Made by a program: the position numbers and the translations under genes. Source: Chroococcidiopsis sp. TS-821 (lineage in GTDB: Bacteria; Cyanobacteriota; Cyanobacteriia; Cyanobacteriales; Chroococcidiopsidaceae). From it: 64,000 nt of DNA. The notes beneath the pieces were generated by a model. It had not been told where the DNA came from. It saw only the letters and a list, made by a program, of their open reading frames with translations, and did no database searches. This document shows, in pieces, positions 23,293 through 33,602 of this stretch. The stretch is from the NCBI RefSeq assembly GCF_002939305.1, contig NZ_MVDI01000002.1:434001-498000 (forward strand). The letters are read 5' to 3'. How positions within the stretch are numbered: the stretch's first letter is position 1; each line of letters starts with the position of its first letter.

Positions 23293-24717
23293 TCACGCAT
23301 CATAGTAGAGGGCAAACTCGTAAGGGTGAGGACGCAGCCGCATCGGGTTGATTTCTTTATCAATCTTGTACGTAATCCAGTTGTTGATAAAGTCTTCGGT
23401 GAAAACCCCAGTAGCCGTCAAGAAGCTGTGGTCGTCTTCGAGTGCTTGTAGGGCTTCCAGCAACGAACCTGGTGTCGAAGGAACTTTAGCTAACTCTTCA
23501 GGGCTGAGTTCGTAGATATCGACATCCAAAGGATCGCCAGGGTCAATTTCGTTCTTGATACCATCAATACCCGCGCACAACATCGCTGCAAACGCGAGAT
23601 AGGGGTTAGCGGTAGCATCAGGACAACGGAACTCCAAACGCTTCGCTTTGGGGCTAGAAGCGATGGGAATTCGCACCGAAGCCGAACGGTTTCCTTGGGA
23701 ATATGCCAAGTTTACGGGTGCTTCAAAACCAGGGACGAGACGTTTATATGAGTTGGTGCTGGGGTTAGTAAAGGCTAACAGCGCAGGAGCGTGTTTGAGA
23801 ATACCACCAATGTAATGTAATGCCATTTGGCTTAAGCCGGCGTAGCGATCGCCTGCAAATAAAGGCTGACCATCTTTCCAAATTGATTGGTGCGTGTGCA
23901 TACCCGAACCGTTATCGTTAAAGATCGGCTTGGGCATAAAAGTGACCGTCTTACCGTATTTCTTCGCAACGTTTTTGATGACATATTTGTACGTCATCAA
24001 ATGATCGGCGGCTTTGATGAGCGGGGCAAACTTGAAACCTAACTCGCACTGACCGCCTGTCGCCACTTCGTGGTGATGCTTTTCAATGACAACACCACAC
24101 TTTGCCATTGTCAGCAGCATTTCACTGCGCATATCTTGCAACGAGTCGGTAGGCGAAACAGGGAAGTAACCTTCTTTATAGCGCGGTTTATAGCCTAAGT
24201 TACCGCCTGTTTCCTCGCGACCCGAATTCCAACGACCTTCAGCGGAATCAACGTAGTAGTAGCTCTTGTTTTCGGTTTGGTCGAAGCGGACATCATCAAA
24301 GATGAAAAATTCGGCTTCAGGACCAAAGTAGGCAGTATCGCCAAGGTTCGCAGCTTTGAGAAAATCTAACGCTTTTTGTGCGATCGCTCGCGGACAGCGC
24401 GAGTAAAGTTCTCCTGTACGTGGCTCTAAGATTGTACATATCATCGAGAGCGTTTTGTCTGCCATGAATGGATCGATCCAGGCAGTATTGGGGTCTGGTC
24501 GCATCGCCATGTCTGATTCGTGAATTGACTTCCAGCCACGAATGCTAGATCCATCGAACGCTACCCCTTCAACAAAGCTTTCTTCTTCGATGAGCGATTT
24601 GTGCACCGTAAGATGTTGCCACGTACCTAAGGGATCGACAAATTTTAAATCGATCAGTTCTATACCTTCGTCTTGAATCATCTTCAAGACATCTTGCGGG
24701 GTTTTCTCTTCAGACAT
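23293..24717 (-). CDS. glnA: Type I glutamine synthetase
   Basis: A 474-residue GSI enzyme forming dodecamers that make glutamine from glutamate, ammonia and ATP. Seen motifs include FDGSSIRGW, the metal/glutamate site [44 protein letters not shown] and the ending [15 protein letters not shown]. Its length equals that of other cyanobacterial GlnA proteins. A canonical NtcA-activated promoter lies upstream and a strong terminator downstream, so it is probably monocistronic and nitrogen-regulated. Cyanobacterial GS is also controlled by small inactivating factors, but none are encoded nearby. Confidence 0.97.
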
Positions 24718-24788: not shown

Positions 24789-24830
24789 ATCCTAAGGATA
24801 GAGTTAGGGCAATTTTGTAGTTTATTATAC
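24789..24830 (-). promoter_or_regulatory. Class II NtcA-activated promoter of glnA
   Basis: On the minus strand GTATAATAAACTAC (plus 24817-24830) fits the NtcA consensus GTA-N8-TAC, with the flanking T and A extending the palindrome. Exactly 22 bases further downstream is TAGGAT (plus 24789-24794), matching the -10 form TAN3T. This is the standard arrangement at NtcA-activated promoters, about 70 bp before the glnA ATG. Confidence 0.85.
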
Positions 24831-25139
24831 AAAAACCTACTTTTACTGATTCTATTAGGATTCTTTGCGAAAGATTGTCAGATTGACTCGCTTTGCCCAA
24901 CAATACGGCTTGTAAAGTTGAATATCATCGAGTACGACGCTCAAAGATCCAGTACATCACGACATCATTATTCAGAAAATCTCAAATCAGTCGTCAAATT
25001 AGCATAGAATCCATAAGTAGCCAGTAAATTGCCTGTATCGCTATTTCATAGTTCAGGCACCATAGTCATAAATACTAGGTACGAAAAAATCGAGTAAGAA
25101 TATCAAACCACAAATAGGAAATATTTGGAGAGCAATTTC
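24831..25139. other. Intergenic region between glnA and apcF
   Basis: This 309-bp stretch lies between divergent glnA and apcF and should hold the apcF promoter, which could not be pinned down. No gene or strong hairpin was found. GGAG at 25127-25130 is the apcF ribosome-binding site. No sequence resembling the glutamine riboswitch core was recognised on the glnA side. Confidence 0.35.
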
Positions 25140-25649
25140 ATGCGGGACGCGATTACATCTTTAATTGGAACTTACGATGTCGCAGGTCGATATTTTGACC
25201 GCGATGCTATGGAACGGCTGAAATCTTACTTTGAAACAGGGACAGCACGAGTCCAAGCCGCAGCAGCAATTAATAGCAACGCCGCAACCATTGTCAAGCG
25301 TTCAGGTTCGCGATTATTTGAAGAACTGCCCGAACTCATTCGTCCTGGTGGAAATGCTTACACCACACGGCGCTACGCTGCTTGCTTGCGCGATATGGAC
25401 TACTACCTGCGCTATGCTACCTATGCACTCGTCGCTGGCAGTATGGATGTCTTAGATGAACGCGTGCTGCAAGGTTTGCGAGAAACTTACAATTCCTTAG
25501 GAGTACCAATTGGTCCAACGATTCAAGGTATCCAAATAATGAAGGACATTGTTAAAGAGCAAGTTGCCGCAGCTGGAGTAGAGGATACGAGTTTTGTCGA
25601 TGAGCCGTTTGACTATATGACCAGCGAGTTGGGCGAACAAGATATTTAA
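25140..25649 (+). CDS. apcF: Allophycocyanin beta-18 subunit
   Basis: A 169-residue phycobiliprotein from ATG 25140; GGAG at 25127-25130 fits this start better than the TTG at 25125. Cys82 in RRYAACLRDMDYYLRYATYA binds phycocyanobilin and Asn72 (PGGNAYTTRR) is the residue usually methylated. Length and the ending DEPFDYMTSELGEQDI distinguish ApcF from the shorter ApcB. ApcF is a core-terminal subunit that pairs with ApcE and helps pass energy from the phycobilisome core to photosystem II. Confidence 0.93.
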   Translation: MRDAITSLIGTYDVAGRYFDRDAMERLKSYFETGTARVQAAAAINSNAATIVKRSGSRLFEELPELIRPGGNAYTTRRYAACLRDMDYYLRYATYALVAGSMDVLDERVLQGLRETYNSLGVPIGPTIQGIQIMKDIVKEQVAAAGVEDTSFVDEPFDYMTSELGEQDI

Positions 25650-25733
25650 CGAAGAGGTCGGAACTCGGAGGTTAGGGATAGAGAAGACTTGAACCTCGGT
25701 GGTTTCTCATCTCCTTCTACTAGACACAATACG

Positions 25734-25780
25734 AAGCGATCGCCGTTTGACTAGCTTGGGTTTAAAGCGCGATCGCTTTT
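25734..25780 (+). terminator. Possible terminator formed by two HIP1 sites
   Basis: AAGCGATCGC (25734-25743) can pair with GCGATCGCTT (25769-25778) over 10 bp, with a 25-base loop, followed by TT. It lies 85 bp after the apcF stop. Because HIP1 is itself palindromic, any two copies pair, so the call is tentative. Confidence 0.35.
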
Positions 25781-25911
25781 GCTTATGAAGCAACTCTAAA
25801 ACAGTATCAACACCTGCTTGGCAACTCCTTGACAAAAGTCCTATGATGGTGAATTTAAACTCATCGCAGTTCCACACTCAGTTTTAAAACACCACCTTCA
25901 TAGTTGCACTT

Positions 25912-27168
25912 ATGCCAAACAAAAAGCACGTTCCTCGGCATATTGTTCTCACTTCCCATCCCAGCCAATTTGGTCCTAAACCGATTCCGATTTCTTGGGG
26001 AGCCGCAGACCCACGCGATCGCGGTCCGATCGTCGCGACATTAACCAATCCAGCCCACCGCAATGTGATTGGTACGCATTCGGGTAGTTATGCTGTTTAT
26101 CGTGCTTTAGCAGTTGCTAGAGGAGTGCTGCAATCAGATTATCGCGCGGATTTAACAAACACCTCTCCCGTCGAGCAAATTGGACCGCATCCCAGCTGGG
26201 CAGATCCTGAAAAAATTGTCTCGCTCGATCCGTTTGGGGCAATGGTAGGAGAAGCATTTAAGACTTACTACGAGCAAGGATATGATATCCGACCGACGAT
26301 TGCGATTACCAAAGCTCACATCAATATGCCAGAGCTACAAGATGCAGTAACTGCCGGACGATTACGCATCGATGGTAAAATTCTCAAACCACGCGGTGAT
26401 TTGGTCGTTACAAAAGCCGCTATCGATCCGGTGTGGTACTTACCAGGAATTGCCAAGCGCTTTGGAATTACCGAAGCTGATTTGCGCCGCGCCTTGTTTG
26501 AACAAACGGGCGGTATGTTTCCTGAGTTAGTCACGCGGTCGGATCTAGAAGTCTTTTTGCCACCAATTGGCGGCATTACCGTGTACATTGTGGGAGATGT
26601 CGCTGCGATCGCCGATCCGCATAAACCTTTAGCGGTGCGAGTCCATGATGAATGTAACGGTTCTGATGTTTTTGGTTCGGATATTTGTACGTGTCGTCCT
26701 TATTTAGTTCATGGTATTGAAGTGTGCGTCCAAACGGCGCAAGCAGGTGGTGCGGGTGCGATCGTCTATTGCCGTAAGGAAGGACGCGCCTTGGGAGAAG
26801 TGACAAAATTTTTAGTTTACAACGCACGCAAACGCCAATCTGGAGGCGATCGCGCTGATGCTTACTTTGCACGTACCGAATGCGTTGCAGGCGTCCAAGA
26901 TATGCGCTTTCAAGAGTTGATGCCTGATGTTTTGCATTGGCTGGGAATTACGCGCATCGATCGCATGGTGTCGATGAGCAATTTGAAATACGACGCAGTG
27001 ACGCAATCTGGGATCGAAATTGTGGAACGCGTACCGATTCCAGAGGAGTTGATTCCGCAAGATGCACGCGTAGAAATTGAAGCGAAAAAGGCGGCGGGAT
27101 ACTATACCAATGGCGAAGTCGCCGATACCGCAACTTTATCTGAGATTAAAGGGCGAAGCTTAGATTAA
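25912..27168 (+). CDS. GTP cyclohydrolase II-like protein, URC1 type
   Basis: A 418-residue protein. The C-terminal half (about 225-385) is RibA-like, with cysteines as in the GTP cyclohydrolase II zinc site (HDECNGSDVFGSDICTC) and the YCRKEGRALGEVTKF segment matching the catalytic EGR-G region. The N-terminal half (about 1-215) is an extra domain absent from riboflavin-pathway RibA and typical of URC1, a protein of a uracil catabolic pathway. It precedes the DUF1688 (URC4) gene by 4 bp and is followed by upp, which supports a pyrimidine-breakdown rather than riboflavin role. Confidence 0.75.
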   Translation: MPNKKHVPRHIVLTSHPSQFGPKPIPISWGAADPRDRGPIVATLTNPAHRNVIGTHSGSYAVYRALAVARGVLQSDYRADLTNTSPVEQIGPHPSWADPEKIVSLDPFGAMVGEAFKTYYEQGYDIRPTIAITKAHINMPELQDAVTAGRLRIDGKILKPRGDLVVTKAAIDPVWYLPGIAKRFGITEADLRRALFEQTGGMFPELVTRSDLEVFLPPIGGITVYIVGDVAAIADPHKPLAVRVHDECNGSDVFGSDICTCRPYLVHGIEVCVQTAQAGGAGAIVYCRKEGRALGEVTKFLVYNARKRQSGGDRADAYFARTECVAGVQDMRFQELMPDVLHWLGITRIDRMVSMSNLKYDAVTQSGIEIVERVPIPEELIPQDARVEIEAKKAAGYYTNGEVADTATLSEIKGRSLD

Positions 27169-27172
27169 TCGC

Positions 27173-28411
27173 GTGAAGGAATTGAAAATTGTGTCTTCTC
27201 AAAAGGAGATTGCGTACTTACGTTCGGCTAAAGCAATTCGCGATCGCTGTGGTATTTTATTTGATTTAGCGCGTGAAGATCGCCTAGAACATTTTCGCTG
27301 CGATTTAACGCAGTTAAGACCTGTGGCAGATTATGTCATTGAGGTCATGCGTGAAAATTATCCTGATTTACAAATTCCCTTTCATAGCCGCTGGCGTCAT
27401 TTTGCAGCAGCAAGATCGCGTTTAACACAGCTAGAACGCAAGTTAGCAGAATTAACACCGCTTGCCAAAGCCCAAGCTAAGTTCGATTTAGCGATCGTCA
27501 GTGTATTGCTCGATGCTGGCGCCGGCGCAACTTGGCAGTATTGTGACCCTGATACTAATTTAGTATTTCATCGCTCAGAAGGACTCGCGATCGCGAGTTT
27601 TCACATGTTTTGTCAGGGAACTTTTTCGAGTCATGCTGACAAGCTGCAAGCAGATGCCTTGGGCTTGCAAAACCTAACAGAAGATGTTCTGGCAGCTGGC
27701 TTGCAAGTAAGTCCTGACAATCCGCTTGTAGGTTTACCTGGAAGATTGCACCTGTTGCGCCGATTAGGACAAACAATCGTTAGTCATCCACAACTGTTTG
27801 GTCGCGATCGTCCTCGTCCTGGAGGACTAGTCAATTACTTACTAGCAAAAGTGACTCGCGGACAACTCGCGGCTGAAAAGGTTTTCAGTGCAGTTTTAGA
27901 AGGACTAGGAAATATTTGGACAGGAAGATTACAAATTGATGGTGTAAATCTAGGTGACGTTTGGTATCACTCAGCACTTAATAATAGTACAGAAAATGGG
28001 CTAGTGCCTTTTCACAAACTTTCGCAGTGGCTAACTTATTCGTTACTCGAACCACTCCAAGAACTTGGTTTAGAAATTACGGGACTAGATGCTTTGACTG
28101 GATTACCTGAGTATCGCAACGGTGGTTTATGTCTCGATCTAGGACTCTTGCAGCCCAAATACCCAAATTTATTACAGCAAGCACATCGAGTCGATTCGGA
28201 AGTGATTGTCGAGTGGCGAGCTTTAACAGTGATTCTATTAGACTACATTGCTGCGACGATTCGCGAAAAATTGGCAATGGATGCGCAAGAGTTACCGCTC
28301 GTGAAAGTCCTCCAAGGGGGAACGTGGAGTGCAGGACGTAAAATTGCCGCACAGTTGAGAAGACATGGCGTTCCACCGCTTCAGATCGAAAGCGATGGCA
28401 CCGTATTTTAG
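27173..28411 (+). CDS. DUF1688 protein, URC4 type
   Basis: A 412-residue protein of the DUF1688/URC4 family (start IAYLRSAKAIRDRCGILFDL; VSVLLDAGAGATWQYCDPDT; GRPRPGGLVNYLL-type segment). URC4 is required for uracil breakdown in the yeast URC pathway, with unknown chemistry. The GTG at 27173 lies 4 bp after the previous stop. A second GTG at 27191, preceded by GAAGGA, is an equally good start. Tight spacing implies translational coupling with the URC1-like gene. Confidence 0.75.
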   Translation: MKELKIVSSQKEIAYLRSAKAIRDRCGILFDLAREDRLEHFRCDLTQLRPVADYVIEVMRENYPDLQIPFHSRWRHFAAARSRLTQLERKLAELTPLAKAQAKFDLAIVSVLLDAGAGATWQYCDPDTNLVFHRSEGLAIASFHMFCQGTFSSHADKLQADALGLQNLTEDVLAAGLQVSPDNPLVGLPGRLHLLRRLGQTIVSHPQLFGRDRPRPGGLVNYLLAKVTRGQLAAEKVFSAVLEGLGNIWTGRLQIDGVNLGDVWYHSALNNSTENGLVPFHKLSQWLTYSLLEPLQELGLEITGLDALTGLPEYRNGGLCLDLGLLQPKYPNLLQQAHRVDSEVIVEWRALTVILLDYIAATIREKLAMDAQELPLVKVLQGGTWSAGRKIAAQLRRHGVPPLQIESDGTVF

Positions 28412-28465
28412 CGGCTAGCAATTAGAGAAGTTTCCAGTAGACAAAACCTAATACAAATACCGACT

Positions 28466-29101
28466 ATGCAAGCTGAAGTAACCGTTATCGACCATCCCTT
28501 GATTCAGCACAAGCTGACGCTGATGCGTAAAGCCGAAACGAGTACAGCCAAATTTCGCACGTTGTTGAAGGAAATCAGCTTGCTGCTAGCATATGAAGTG
28601 ACGCGAGATCTTCCGTTAAAAACGGAAACGATCAAAACCCCTTTAGCCACGATGGAAGCACCAGTGCTCGCTCCCGATAAAAAGTTAGTGATTGTTTCCA
28701 TTTTAAGAGCGGGACAAGGAATTTTAGATGGCATGTTGGAACTGATGCCTTCAGCTAGAGTAGGGCATATTGGTTTATACCGCGACCCCAAAACACTGAT
28801 TGCCGTTGAATACTATTTCAAAGTACCTCACGACGTTGAGAAGCGCGATATGCTAGTAGTCGATCCAATGCTAGCGACAGGAAACTCAGCAGCAGCAGCG
28901 GTGACGCGCTTGAAGTTAACAAATCCTGTTTCTATGAAGTTTGTCTGCTTACTGGCTGCACCCGAAGGAATCGCGCATTTTCACGAACTACACCCTGACG
29001 TTCCGATCTACACGGCGGCGATCGACCAGCAGTTGGACGAGCACGGGTACATTGTGCCAGGATTAGGCGATGCAGGCGATCGCTTATTCGGTACGCGCTG
29101 A
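28466..29101 (+). CDS. upp: Uracil phosphoribosyltransferase
   Basis: A 211-residue type I phosphoribosyltransferase with flexible-loop and PRPP-binding regions ([32 protein letters not shown]) and the uracil-recognition C-terminus [16 protein letters not shown]. It converts uracil and PRPP to UMP. Besides salvage, this is the entry step of the URC degradation pathway, which fits its position right after the URC1- and URC4-like genes (54-bp gap). Confidence 0.92.
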
Positions 29102-29178
29102 GTCACTATTTTCCCTAAGCCAGAAAGTTAAAGTCCCAACCTAAAGCACCAAAAAAATCTCCCCAACCTCTCTTAATT

Positions 29179-29673
29179 ATGGCTGTAGCTAAATCAATCT
29201 ATCAACTCACTGCACAGTTGGTTACACCAGAAAACTTTCAACCTTATGGTCAAGTGATTGCTGCTAGTACTGATGGTAAGGCTTACGACCACAGCGATGC
29301 GCAGCTGGTATTAAATAACGGCATTCCTCGCTTCTACATTATGCGCTTGCACCGACGCGGGCGGAAATTCCACACAATTACCCGTCACCTCAAATGTACT
29401 CAGTGTTTAGGTTCGCTGGCGGGTAAAGAATGGTTGCTTGCTGTCGCACCCCCAAGTTCTGCACCGCAGCCGGAACTTGACAAAATTGCCGCATTCCGCA
29501 TTCCTGGCGATCGCTTTATTAAGCTAGAAGTCGGTACTTGGCACGCCGGACCTTACTTTGAACACGAGTTTGTCGATTTTTATAATCTGGAGCTGAGTGA
29601 CACCAACATCAACGACCACGACACTTATAATTTTCGGCAGCAAGCAAATCTAGAGTGGGAAATTGTCTTGTGA
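29179..29673 (+). CDS. Ureidoglycolate lyase (AllA)-family cupin protein
   Basis: A 164-residue protein related to ureidoglycolate lyase/hydrolase (AllA) in size and fold, with PRFYIMRLHRRGRKFHTITR, the conserved core SLAGKEWLLAVAPP and the His-containing WHAGPYFEHEFVDFYNLEL. In AllA, ureidoglycolate is split to glyoxylate and urea. In this operon it may act on a ureido-intermediate of uracil breakdown; this is inference, since no other allantoin genes are nearby. Confidence 0.65.
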   Translation: MAVAKSIYQLTAQLVTPENFQPYGQVIAASTDGKAYDHSDAQLVLNNGIPRFYIMRLHRRGRKFHTITRHLKCTQCLGSLAGKEWLLAVAPPSSAPQPELDKIAAFRIPGDRFIKLEVGTWHAGPYFEHEFVDFYNLELSDTNINDHDTYNFRQQANLEWEIVL

Positions 29674-29916
29674 CTAGTTATAGCAGGGGTCAGCGGTCAG
29701 GGTTAAAATCCCTTCAGGGAAGTCACTACGAGCTTCGATAATGTCCTAACTCTATTGACTTGGGCTATAGATAGATATCTATTGTGTCTTGCTAAGTGTG
29801 TTTCTCATCACTAACCGCTCACTACATTTAAGATTACTGCCATCTGGTCAACTACAATACGGTTCTGAGATGTCGCTCAGCGTCAAGATATCTGCAACAA
29901 TAGTTGATGGTTTGGC

Positions 29917-31206
29917 ATGAGTAGCACGTCGGAACAAAACTTAGCAACGCGATCGCCAGTAAGTGAAGACTACCCACTGAATGCTGTCCCACCCGAAGCG
30001 CGTAAGTCACTTTGGTCGCTGGCTCCTTTGTTGATAGGCTTTACTTTATATTCTGGAACTTTTTTCGCCGGAGGTAGAGTAGGTCCAGCTTTCCGCTTTA
30101 CCGATCTAGTCGGTCTGATTGTGGCAGGTAATCTGCTTTTAGGTATCTATGCGGCACTACTGAGCTATATCGCAGCGCGTAGTGGTTTAAGTACAGTATT
30201 AATGGCACGCTTTAGTTTTGGTAGCGTTGGCTCGCGTTGGGTTGACTTTCTGCTTGGCTTTACGCAAATTGGTTGGTATGCTTGGGGTTCGGCTTTAATG
30301 GCAGAGGTGCTCAATCAATTAGCTGGAGTTCCAAGTTCGTTTAATTGGTTAGTGATTCTTTTCTTTACGTATTTTTTCTGCTCAACTGCTTATATCGGCT
30401 ATCGCGCGATGGATTGGCTCAGTCGCATTGCAGTTCCAGCGATGCTGATTTTAATCGTTTGGAGCTTAACCATCGCCACACGCGATGTTGGTGGCTTTGC
30501 GGGTTTACAAGCGATCGTACCGCAACAACAACTTGGACTTGGTGAAGCGATTACTATCATCGTTGGAACTTTTGTTTCTGGTGGAACTCAAGCAACAAAT
30601 TGGAGTCGTTTTGCTAAGGATGGACAGACAGCATTTTGGAGTACCTTGGCTGCTTTTTTTCTTGCAAATGGCTTATTAATTTTTAGTGGTGCGTTCGGTG
30701 CCTTAGTTTATGGCAATGAAGACATTGTACAAGTAATGGCACAGCAAGGATTACTCTTTTGGGGATTGATACTATTGTTCTTGAATATGTGGACAACGCA
30801 AGATAATACTATCTATGCTTTTTCAGTCGCTGGCGCGCACATGTTTCGCACAAATAAACGTACTGCCTTTGTTCTAGGTGGTGCTACCGTGGCGTTAGTA
30901 TTAGCTTGGGGAGGAATTTATAACTTGCTTGTTCCTTACTTGATTTTGCTGGGAACATTTATTCCTCCGATCGGTGGTGTTGTCATGGCAGATTATTGGT
31001 TGCTGCGCCGAGGACAATTTCCGACCCTAGAGCAAAGACAGCCAGCGTTTAACTGGGCAGGAATTATTGCTTATATTATTGCCTCGGCGATCGCGTGGGC
31101 TGCACCTGGAATTAAACCGATTAACGGTATTGTTGCGGCAGTCATTCTCTACTTTATTTTGAGTAAATTGATAACAGGTACAAGAAAAACGAACGCGATA
31201 AATTAA
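29917..31206 (+). CDS. NCS1-family nucleobase permease (CodB-like)
   Basis: A 429-residue membrane protein with about 12 transmembrane helices. It resembles cytosine permease of the NCS1 family (LLIGFTLYSGTFFAGGRVGP, LLGFTQIGWYAWGSALMAEV, TFVSGGTQATNWSRFAKD, NMWTTQDNTIYAFSVAG). It probably imports uracil or cytosine for the preceding catabolic genes. A 243-bp gap before it contains TTGACT at 29755 and a palindrome ATAGATATCTAT at 29771, so it may also have its own promoter. Confidence 0.82.
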   Translation: MSSTSEQNLATRSPVSEDYPLNAVPPEARKSLWSLAPLLIGFTLYSGTFFAGGRVGPAFRFTDLVGLIVAGNLLLGIYAALLSYIAARSGLSTVLMARFSFGSVGSRWVDFLLGFTQIGWYAWGSALMAEVLNQLAGVPSSFNWLVILFFTYFFCSTAYIGYRAMDWLSRIAVPAMLILIVWSLTIATRDVGGFAGLQAIVPQQQLGLGEAITIIVGTFVSGGTQATNWSRFAKDGQTAFWSTLAAFFLANGLLIFSGAFGALVYGNEDIVQVMAQQGLLFWGLILLFLNMWTTQDNTIYAFSVAGAHMFRTNKRTAFVLGGATVALVLAWGGIYNLLVPYLILLGTFIPPIGGVVMADYWLLRRGQFPTLEQRQPAFNWAGIIAYIIASAIAWAAPGIKPINGIVAAVILYFILSKLITGTRKTNAIN

Positions 31207-31382
31207 CTATAATGATCATTTAATGTTTCCCGTGTTTTCACGCACGGTAGTACAATTACCTACGTAGATCTACGGGAAAATATTTTGAATTGTTAGTGTA
31301 TAGCCGATCGCAGTCGAACGTGGACAATTTCTAAAAGCTACGATACGCTGATTGGCAAAGCACACCTGTCCGCCCTTTACAC

Positions 31383-33602
31383 ATGGATAAGTCGGCTATG
31401 GAATCTAACGAAACTATTGACATAGACCTTAAAAGAGTTTGGTTGATTTTAAAACGGCGCTGGTTGCCTGCGGCAGGTGTATTCGGCGTTGTTGTAGCTG
31501 CAGCAACCGCATTGGCATCAATGCAAAGACCCGTATACGAAGCGCAGGGAAAGCTACTTTTTAGAAAAGCAGATAGAACAGCTGCAATTTCTGGATTAAA
31601 AGATATCAACGTCGGCGAGCTAGAAGCACTAGCAGCAAAAGCTAACCCCCTCAATACAGAAATAGAGATTATTCGTTCTGTACCTTTTCTTGAAAAAACA
31701 ATTACAGCGCTGAATTTAAGGAACGATAACGGTTCGTTATTAAAACCACAAGTCCTGGCAAGCAGGGTGAATGCCAGAAATATTCCACTAACAGATGTCT
31801 TGCAGATTTCTTACCAAAGTGAAGATCCAGAAGAAGCGGCAGCAGTTGTCAATAAAGTGATGAATTTGTACATCGAAAACAACATCATCACCAATCGTGC
31901 TGAAGCATCGGCGGCGGGAGAATTTATCGCCAAGCAATTGCCGCAAATGGAAGCAACTGTTCGACAAGCAGAACAGGCACTACGTCAGTTCAAAGAACAA
32001 AACCAAGTTGTCGCTTTAGATGAAGAAGCTAAAACTGCAGTAGCGGCGATTAAGCAACTAGAAAATCAAATTACCGAAACTCAAGCGCAACTAGCAGACA
32101 CCACAACCAGAAGCGCAACGCTGCAACAACAAGTAGGAATGAATCCCCAAGAAGGAATTACGCTGACTGCGCTGAATCAATCACCAGGAATACAGAAAGT
32201 TTTACAAGAATATCAACAAGTAGAAGCGGAACTAGCTGTACAGCAAACTCGCTTTGTCGGCGATCATCCTACCATCTTAAGTTTAACTGAACGCAGAGAT
32301 GCACTCAGAGCTTTACTAGAGGAACGCGTGCAAGGTGCCATCGGTAATGCAGCAGCCACAGAAGTTTCACCAGGCAACTTGCAAATGGGTCAAATTCGCC
32401 AGGAACTAACACAAAATTATGTCAACTCAGAAATCCAACGATTAGGTTTGGTCAGCCGCCTCAATTCGCTCAATAATACATACAATGCCTACCGCCAAAG
32501 AGCCAATGTTCTACCTCGTTTAGAACAAACGCAAAGAGAATTAGAGCGACGTCTAGAAGCTGCTCAATCTACCTACGAAACCTTATTAAGGAGATTGCAA
32601 GAAGTTAGGGTAGCTGAAAACCAAAATATGGGTAATGCCCGCATCATTGAATTTGCAACAGTGCCAGAGAATGCATCTGTGCGCAAAAAAGCAATGATTC
32701 TTGCGCTGGGTAATGTATTAGCACTGATTCTTGCAATTCTCACAATTTGTATTTTAGAACTCAGCGATCGCTCAGTGAAAACGCTGCGCGAAGCTCGTGA
32801 AAGACTGGATTACACGCTGCTGGGTACCATTCCTTACTTTGGTGGTAAAAGATTTGCGAACCGGCGCAATCAAGAATGGTCGATTCCTGAGTTACCAGTA
32901 ATTAATCTACCGCGATCGCCCATTAGCGAAGCTTATCGGATGCTGCAAGCAAATTTAAAATTCCTCAGTTCGGATAAGCCACTGAAAGTTATTGTTGTCA
33001 CAAGTGCAGTTCCCAAAGAAGGCAAATCCACGGTATCAGCAAATTTAGCAGCTGCGATGGCACAGCTGGGGCGTAAAGTCTTACTCGTGGATGCGGATAT
33101 GCGTCACCCATTGCAACACCATATTTGGGAATTAACAAACGCTGCTGGGTTAAGCGATGTTATTGTTTCGCAAGCTGAGTTTGAGTCAGTTGTCACAGAA
33201 GTCATTCCCAAGCTTGATGTATTAAGTGCAGGCGTAATTCCACCCAACCCAATGGCACTCCTCGATTCCAAACGGATGGCTTCGTTGGTGCAATACTTCA
33301 GCGATCGCTATGACTTTGTCATTATTGATGCACCGCCATTAGTTCTCGCAGCTGACGCGGTGACCCTCGGAAAAATGACTGATGGCATTTTATTAGTAGC
33401 GCGTCCAGGTGTGTTAGACTCTTCCAGCGCCGCTGCTGCTAAAGAATCCTTAGAGCGTTCTGGACAAAATGTACTCGGTTTAGTTGCTAATGGTGTCATC
33501 CCAGAAAATGAATCAGATAGTTACTTCTACTACGCTAAGGAATACGCCAACGAAAAGAACTTCCCCATTGAAGAAAATCCAACCGTAACAACTCCACGTT
33601 AG
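31383..33602 (+). CDS. Polysaccharide co-polymerase and bacterial tyrosine kinase (Wzc-like)
   Basis: A 739-residue inner-membrane protein. A Wzz chain-length domain (about 8-100) with a first transmembrane helix near 26-46 leads to a long periplasmic coiled coil (about 180-410). A second helix lies at about 436-458 and a cytoplasmic BY-kinase domain at about 510-715: Walker A AVPKEGKSTVSAN, Walker A' LLVDADMRHP, Walker B FVIIDAPP. A C-terminal tyrosine cluster (SYFYYAKEY) is the expected autophosphorylation site. It controls export and chain length of capsule-type polysaccharide and heads the locus. Confidence 0.9.
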   Translation: MDKSAMESNETIDIDLKRVWLILKRRWLPAAGVFGVVVAAATALASMQRPVYEAQGKLLFRKADRTAAISGLKDINVGELEALAAKANPLNTEIEIIRSVPFLEKTITALNLRNDNGSLLKPQVLASRVNARNIPLTDVLQISYQSEDPEEAAAVVNKVMNLYIENNIITNRAEASAAGEFIAKQLPQMEATVRQAEQALRQFKEQNQVVALDEEAKTAVAAIKQLENQITETQAQLADTTTRSATLQQQVGMNPQEGITLTALNQSPGIQKVLQEYQQVEAELAVQQTRFVGDHPTILSLTERRDALRALLEERVQGAIGNAAATEVSPGNLQMGQIRQELTQNYVNSEIQRLGLVSRLNSLNNTYNAYRQRANVLPRLEQTQRELERRLEAAQSTYETLLRRLQEVRVAENQNMGNARIIEFATVPENASVRKKAMILALGNVLALILAILTICILELSDRSVKTLREARERLDYTLLGTIPYFGGKRFANRRNQEWSIPELPVINLPRSPISEAYRMLQANLKFLSSDKPLKVIVVTSAVPKEGKSTVSANLAAAMAQLGRKVLLVDADMRHPLQHHIWELTNAAGLSDVIVSQAEFESVVTEVIPKLDVLSAGVIPPNPMALLDSKRMASLVQYFSDRYDFVIIDAPPLVLAADAVTLGKMTDGILLVARPGVLDSSSAAAAKESLERSGQNVLGLVANGVIPENESDSYFYYAKEYANEKNFPIEENPTVTTPR

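Follow-up and report, generated by a model that had tools for sequence, protein, structure and literature searches.

A URC-type pyrimidine breakdown cluster in the cyanobacterium Chroococcidiopsis sp. TS-821 and a probable Qng1-type N-ribosidase role for URC4 (DUF1688)

Analysis of a 64,000-nucleotide stretch of the genome of the cyanobacterium Chroococcidiopsis sp. TS-821 (contig NZ_MVDI01000002.1, positions 434,001 to 498,000; hereafter the window) points to a five-gene cluster for URC-type pyrimidine breakdown. Its second gene encodes URC4, a protein of the DUF1688 family, and our principal finding is that URC4 is probably an N-ribosidase of the Qng1 type that frees urea. We give this reading of the cluster and of URC4 a probability of about 0.74. 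The original prediction, made from the letters of the window alone, had placed five co-oriented genes at 25912-31206, and all five open reading frames (ORFs) were found there on the + strand. Families were assigned to all five proteins by searches with Pfam and NCBIfam hidden Markov models (HMMs), and the genes can be described as follows:

25912-27168, + strand: URC1 homologue, probable UTP cyclohydrolase (418 aa; GTP_CH_N and GTP_cyclohydro2 domains)
27173-28411, + strand: URC4 (DUF1688), predicted Qng1-fold N-ribosidase (412 aa; GTG start; PF07958)
28466-29101, + strand: uracil phosphoribosyltransferase (UPRT; 211 aa; PRK00129 and upp equivalogs)
29179-29673, + strand: AllA-like cupin, optional fourth gene (164 aa; PF04115)
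29917-31206, + strand: NCS1 permease, cytosine-permease (CodB) equivalog (429 aa; NF008241)

In the pathway that we propose, the permease would import a pyrimidine base, either cytosine or uracil, and the UPRT of the cluster would convert uracil to UMP, which would then be phosphorylated further to UTP. The uracil ring would be opened by URC1, which is related to GTP cyclohydrolase II, to leave a three-carbon fragment and ribosylurea phosphate, and URC4 would cleave the N-glycosidic bond of ribosylurea, or of its phosphate, to give urea and ribose or ribose phosphate. A urease encoded elsewhere in the genome would finally turn the urea into ammonia. The substrates in this organism, and the base that is transported, are ones that we infer. 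The URC route is one of four known routes of pyrimidine breakdown, and in yeast URC1 acts together with URC6 to yield 3-hydroxypropionate and ribosylurea (PMC7530994).

The assignment of the 418- and 412-residue proteins to the URC families, as originally predicted, is borne out by the HMM searches, in which URC1 scored 769 bits against NCBIfam PRK07198 (cut-off 403) and URC4 scored 521 bits against PF07958 (DUF1688; cut-off 25), its sole Pfam match. Searched against the PDB by sequence, URC4 gave no match at E<=1, and a URC4 profile gave one unrelated match (E 1.1); because neither returned Qng1, the link between the two came first from the fold. The AlphaFold model of URC4, built on an alignment of 55 sequences, reached a predicted local distance difference test score (pLDDT) of 90.5 and a predicted template modelling score (pTM) of 0.90. 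When this model was compared with the PDB using Foldseek, all 11 matches at E<=0.001 were structures of Qng1/DUF2419, the queuosine(-5'-phosphate) nucleosidase of queuosine salvage, the best of them 7u07 (E 1.6e-8), and the first match after these 11 had an E-value of 0.21.

Profile comparisons point in the same direction. The DUF2419 reference set comprised four proteins from members of the host phylum outside the host class, where 5 of 194 genomes had one. Aligned to these four proteins with hhalign, a profile of 55 URC4 proteins gave an E-value of 8.6e-6 (probability 83), and a profile of 66 gave 6.1e-7 (probability 92, score 56.4). None of 150 column shuffles reached the latter score (all were <=32.5), and the reversed profile and an AllA profile scored 19.1 and 26.2, respectively. 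An HMM of the four DUF2419 proteins, searched against 1445 proteins in a file that contains many URC4 more than once, put URC4 in the top 102 places, with the first unrelated protein at E 0.43; the protein at rank 45 (L235), which had been flagged otherwise, is the URC4 frame of that locus. With an E-value limit of 10, the Pfam model Q_salvage matched 37 of the 55 URC4 proteins, the best of them at 1.7e-5. Both kinds of alignment agree in placing K199, D231 and K233 of Qng1 at K282, E313 and R315 of URC4, and these three residues, along with E347, R349 and T352, are invariant in all 66 URC4 proteins. Two of the Qng1 residues, D231 and K199, appear as mutants (D231N and K199C) in PDB titles, the numbers being counted on the alignment.

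Qng1 is a nucleoside hydrolase (PMC11130926), and yeast URC4 converts ribosylurea to urea (PMC7530994). Since an N-ribosidase acting on ribosylurea would be the simplest reading of these two facts, we suggest that URC4 is probably an N-ribosidase that releases urea from ribosylurea or its phosphates, an activity predicted from the model and the alignments. We infer both the phosphorylation state of its substrate and the role of E313 as the catalytic residue. In the literature consulted, the enzyme class of URC4 is left open and no link between DUF1688 and DUF2419 was noticed, either in work on DUF1688 or in work on DUF2419, queuosine and Qng1. The link to Qng1 suggests which class of chemistry URC4 carries out and which residues mutants could target, and it reduces the question of what URC4 does to an assay of one enzyme. 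It is this link that is new; the gene cluster itself is of a known fungal and bacterial URC type.

The distribution of the cluster was surveyed in 386 genomes of the host phylum, in 190 genomes of another class (probably Alphaproteobacteria) and in named-genome loci, of which we use the best 80 of at least 564 confirmed places, a selection that favors close relatives. URC4 occurs in 33 of the 386 phylum genomes and in 24 of 143 genera, and the cluster is not unusual among cyanobacteria, where the original prediction had called uracil use as a nitrogen source non-standard. URC1 exceeded its cut-off in 30 genomes, every one of which also has URC4, and in one of them (G215) it lies in two pieces. 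The three URC4 genomes without URC1 over the cut-off (G039, G334 and G354) have a URC4 that is partial or interrupted by stops, and at least five other genomes (G125, G167, G278, G320 and G352) have short URC1 fragments but no URC4. Because such fragments occur without URC4, loss of the cluster is suggested, and they are probable relics of lost clusters. Among the best 80 named-genome loci, whose record titles are cyanobacterial in 79 cases, URC1 lies near URC4 in 69 and UPRT in 59. URC4 was also found in 17 of the 190 genomes of the second class, once as only a 35-residue contig end; URC1 was recognized in 15 of the 16 loci analyzed there, and an ORF cluster with UPRT spans 15. No match to the pattern was found for URC4 in viral contigs. 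Neither rarity nor novelty can be claimed for the URC core. Within cyanobacteria the route is patchy; several genomes have damaged copies and the uptake genes vary, which bears on how these organisms use organic nitrogen.

Several observations weigh against the proposed role of URC4 and of the cluster. The structural agreement with Qng1 is moderate, with template modelling scores of 0.57-0.60 normalized by the query and 0.70-0.75 by the target, and sequence identity is only 15-17%. Neither the single-sequence nor the profile search of the PDB led to Qng1, the Q_salvage model found no match at E<=10 in the URC4 of the window itself, and hhalign E-values from two profiles are lenient: an AllA profile, which is unrelated, came down to 0.0076 and the best of the shuffles to 0.0018. 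In the Qng1 enzyme of Sphaerobacter, D298 belongs to the active site (PMC11592518); by our own count it corresponds to Q381 of URC4, a position that is Q in 52 and E in 14 of the 66 proteins. As for the rest of the pathway, the presence of urease alpha in 32 of the 33 URC4 genomes, including that of the window (G000:C1:1341553-1341906, from a search for the alpha subunit only), speaks for the proposed route, and G338 is the URC4 genome in which urease was not matched. A search of the window's genome for a cytosine deaminase of the equivalog type gave two matches, both under the cut-off. Nitrogen control of the cluster is unsupported because an NtcA-type site is missing just before URC1. A literature search, in which subscription journals were thinly covered, found no biochemical or growth data for a cyanobacterial URC pathway; the word URC was not found in the available part of PMC11698098.

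The fourth gene of the cluster had been taken to suggest an additional step. Its product scored 45.2 bits against PF04115 (cut-off 23) and fell short of both NCBIfam AllA equivalog cut-offs (38.7 against 230 and 25.5 against 212). The best of five AlphaFold models is only fair (pLDDT 78, against 55-61 for the rest), yet it matches the AllA proteins of E. coli and P. putida at E ~4e-10, with 19-23% identity. AllA-like genes are present in 102 of the 386 phylum genomes, namely in 29 of the 33 URC4 genomes and in 73 of the 353 that lack URC4, counts that mix lineages and do not make a clean test. Of the 29 genomes with both genes, 7 carry the AllA-like gene no more than ~10 kb from URC1 or URC4, and these belong to four families (G000, G005, G172, G300, G030, where it is ~8 kb away, G008 and G213); in G008 and G213 the gene and URC1 point away from each other and are 161 and 167 bp apart. 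By a rough estimate, gene density alone would put well under 1/100 near the URC genes. The observed 7/29 is a lower bound, owing to draft contigs, and the cases are not independent, being connected by shared descent. An AllA-like gene was found in 7 of the best 80 named-genome loci, and none was labeled in the stretches shown of the 16 loci of the second class. The AllA-like gene is thus a recurrent but optional neighbor of the URC genes that is also common where URC4 is missing. We read its product as a putative urea-releasing helper of nitrogen salvage.

There is about an even chance that the AllA-like protein is instead a normal ureidoglycolate lyase from purine breakdown, co-regulated with the URC genes, which would make the cluster a mixed locus for nucleobase nitrogen. 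Its wide occurrence, both with and without URC4, fits such a role, as does its position near a ferredoxin-nitrite reductase gene and the gene of an NMT1-like substrate-binding protein in one genome (G177; L246 4539-10024). What speaks against it is that the AllA equivalog models are not reached. In G177, the AllA-like gene shares its contig with urease alpha, ~10 kb away.

Other sources of urea, or other roles for URC4, can also be considered. URC4 might have the fold of Qng1 and yet not be a glycosidase, acting instead as a ureidase or amidohydrolase on the urea group of ribosylurea, or as a partner of URC1 in opening the ring. The Q or E at the D298 position means that its residues on the substrate side differ from those of Qng1, and the yeast work gives only the net conversion of ribosylurea to urea (PMC7530994). 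However, obtaining intact urea from ribosylurea requires cleavage of the bond between sugar and nitrogen, which is the reaction of Qng1 on queuosine, and all 66 URC4 proteins have K and E, respectively, at the positions of K199 and D231; we regard a non-glycosidase URC4 as rather unlikely. A more far-reaching proposal would make URC4/DUF1688 and Qng1 sister families, the former with an active site built on Glu and serving as the N-ribohydrolase for ribosylurea phosphates, to which cyanobacteria add the AllA-like lyase for the open-chain form. If this were true, two unrelated enzymes, URC4 and the AllA-like protein, would free urea from the ring-opened nucleotide, but we hold it to be unlikely. 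That the AllA-like protein, and not URC4, is the main urea releaser, splitting open-chain ribosylurea into urea and an aldose, also seems unlikely to us. It has the AllA fold in its model, it lies near the URC genes in the seven genomes named above, and open-chain ribosylurea would be a carbinol-urea chemically like ureidoglycolate. On the other hand, 4 of the 33 URC4 genomes lack an AllA-like gene and 73 genomes have one without URC4, the 16 second-class loci carry no AllA label, and in yeast the urea-releasing step is given to URC4 (PMC7530994).

The step before that of URC4 would be carried out by URC1. URC1 of the window is identical to PDB chain 7ej3 at 276 of 410 positions in an alignment of near full length. 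Entries 7ej3 and 7eev were deposited under the title GTP cyclohydrolase II, and we take them to be the UTP cyclohydrolase of a 2021 publication; the high identity makes URC1 a probable UTP cyclohydrolase in this cyanobacterium too. The 2021 work is among the references of PMC12507026, and a theory paper of 2022 is among those of PMC9499338. The earlier remark that the core chemistry of the pathway is unsettled would then be outdated for URC1. Three cysteines (C248, C259 and C261) align with cysteines at the metal-site positions of E. coli RibA, and the pattern is kept in all 37 URC1 proteins compared. The corresponding cysteines of RibA bind zinc, and we would expect zinc in URC1 as well. The idea that URC1 is the GTP cyclohydrolase II of the riboflavin pathway is hardly credible and was rejected: the two share the GTP_cyclohydro2 domain and the three metal-site cysteines, but a tree of the 37 URC1 and four RibBA sequences from the host phylum separates the groups by long branches with 100/100 support, URC1 stays below the cut-offs of the RibA models (62.2 against 148 bits and 56.5 against 205.85 bits), and a second, weaker PRK07198 match in the genome leaves room for a separate RibA-type gene. 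The original prediction would have been refuted by a grouping of URC1 with riboflavin RibA enzymes, and no such grouping is seen.

Further genes accompany URC1 in other genomes. A small, conserved TPR protein, 156 aa long in L033, is encoded beside it in 33 of the best 80 loci, for example L124, L128 and L132, mostly in divergent orientation. In one genus (g10), a protein with a guanylate/adenylate cyclase domain is encoded between URC1 and URC4 (L043 8744-9826 and five related loci). A CobW-family GTPase gene lies directly upstream of URC1 in one Planktothrix genome (G255; L051 10752-11792); GTPases of this family can be zinc chaperones, which would fit a zinc enzyme.

The UPRT of the cluster exceeds both of its equivalog cut-offs (PRK00129 and upp). 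It is one of two UPRTs above the Pfam cut-off in this genome, the second (on G000:C7) being 41% identical to it, an arrangement that resembles that of yeast, where URC6 exists alongside FUR1. The permease had been taken for a dedicated uptake system. Its family holds, with 493 bits against the cytosine-permease equivalog NF008241 (cut-off 326), but it is the gene furthest from its neighbor, a permease of this type lies near URC4 in only 3 of the best 80 loci, and it is outside the conserved core. Other uptake genes take its place elsewhere: a permease gene like that of the Bmp-type (PnrA-like) ATP-binding cassette transporter of G030 occurs near URC4 in 16 of the best 80 loci, and the binding protein of this transporter is also near URC4 in 8. 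Bmp-type systems transport nucleosides. The uptake system of URC clusters seems to be exchangeable, and cytosine is likely to be a second substrate. A neighbor resembling cytosine deaminase was found in 6 of the best 80 loci (5 by a stricter score), one of which is only 26% identical to the query; the query protein itself (from G099) passes its equivalog with 702 bits against 403.

The gaps between the five genes, calculated from their coordinates, are 4, 54, 77 and 243 bp, the first of which (URC1 ends at 27168 and URC4 starts at 27173) confirms the spacing originally given. Because the last gap is wide, the permease may have its own promoter and be transcribed separately. Consensus scans for promoters and terminators over 25600-31400 gave no excess over shuffled sequence (9 against 8.9 and 6 against 6.0, respectively). 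Across the window the NtcA-type motif GTAN8TAC occurs 9 times, where 11.1 occurrences would be expected; none of these 9 lies directly before URC1, and control of the cluster by NtcA was rejected. One such palindrome, at 24817-24830, is ~100 bp upstream of glnA (23293-24717, - strand), where an NtcA-type site is expected in cyanobacteria. URC1 is closely preceded by an apcB-type allophycocyanin gene (25125-25649; 264 bits against an equivalog cut-off of 228). Among the best 80 loci, the nearest named genome is that of Gloeocapsopsis crepidinum LEGE 06123, which has the same five-gene order, again with glnA and apcB upstream of the cluster.

Compared with known systems, the cluster has the same core of URC1, URC4 (DUF1688) and UPRT as the URC genes of Lachancea kluyveri and urg1-urg2-urg3 of Schizosaccharomyces pombe, and the core genes are clustered in S. 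pombe as they are here (PMC7530994, PMC3869809, PMC2174524). None of the five genes of the cluster corresponds to the zinc-finger regulator mentioned in PMC3869809. The cyanobacterial cluster adds the AllA-like gene and the CodB-type permease to what is found in yeast, and urea would presumably be broken down by urease, in place of the urea amidolyase encoded by URC3/URC5 in yeast. The permease passes the equivalog cut-off of the NCS1 cytosine permease CodB; unlike in the context of CodB, it accompanies URC genes, and the five genes include no cytosine deaminase. The AllA-like protein shares a cupin fold and PF04115 with the ureidoglycolate lyase AllA (1yqc, 2bdr), from which it is set apart by its low identity and its scores under the AllA equivalog cut-offs. 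URC4 differs from Qng1/DUF2419 in being ~80-90 residues longer, in having Glu in place of Asp231 and in not retaining D298, and no link of URC4 to queuosine was seen; what the two have in common is the predicted fold and the same order of motifs, KxxQ, LTxxx(D/E)Y(K/R) and (V/I)ExRAxT.

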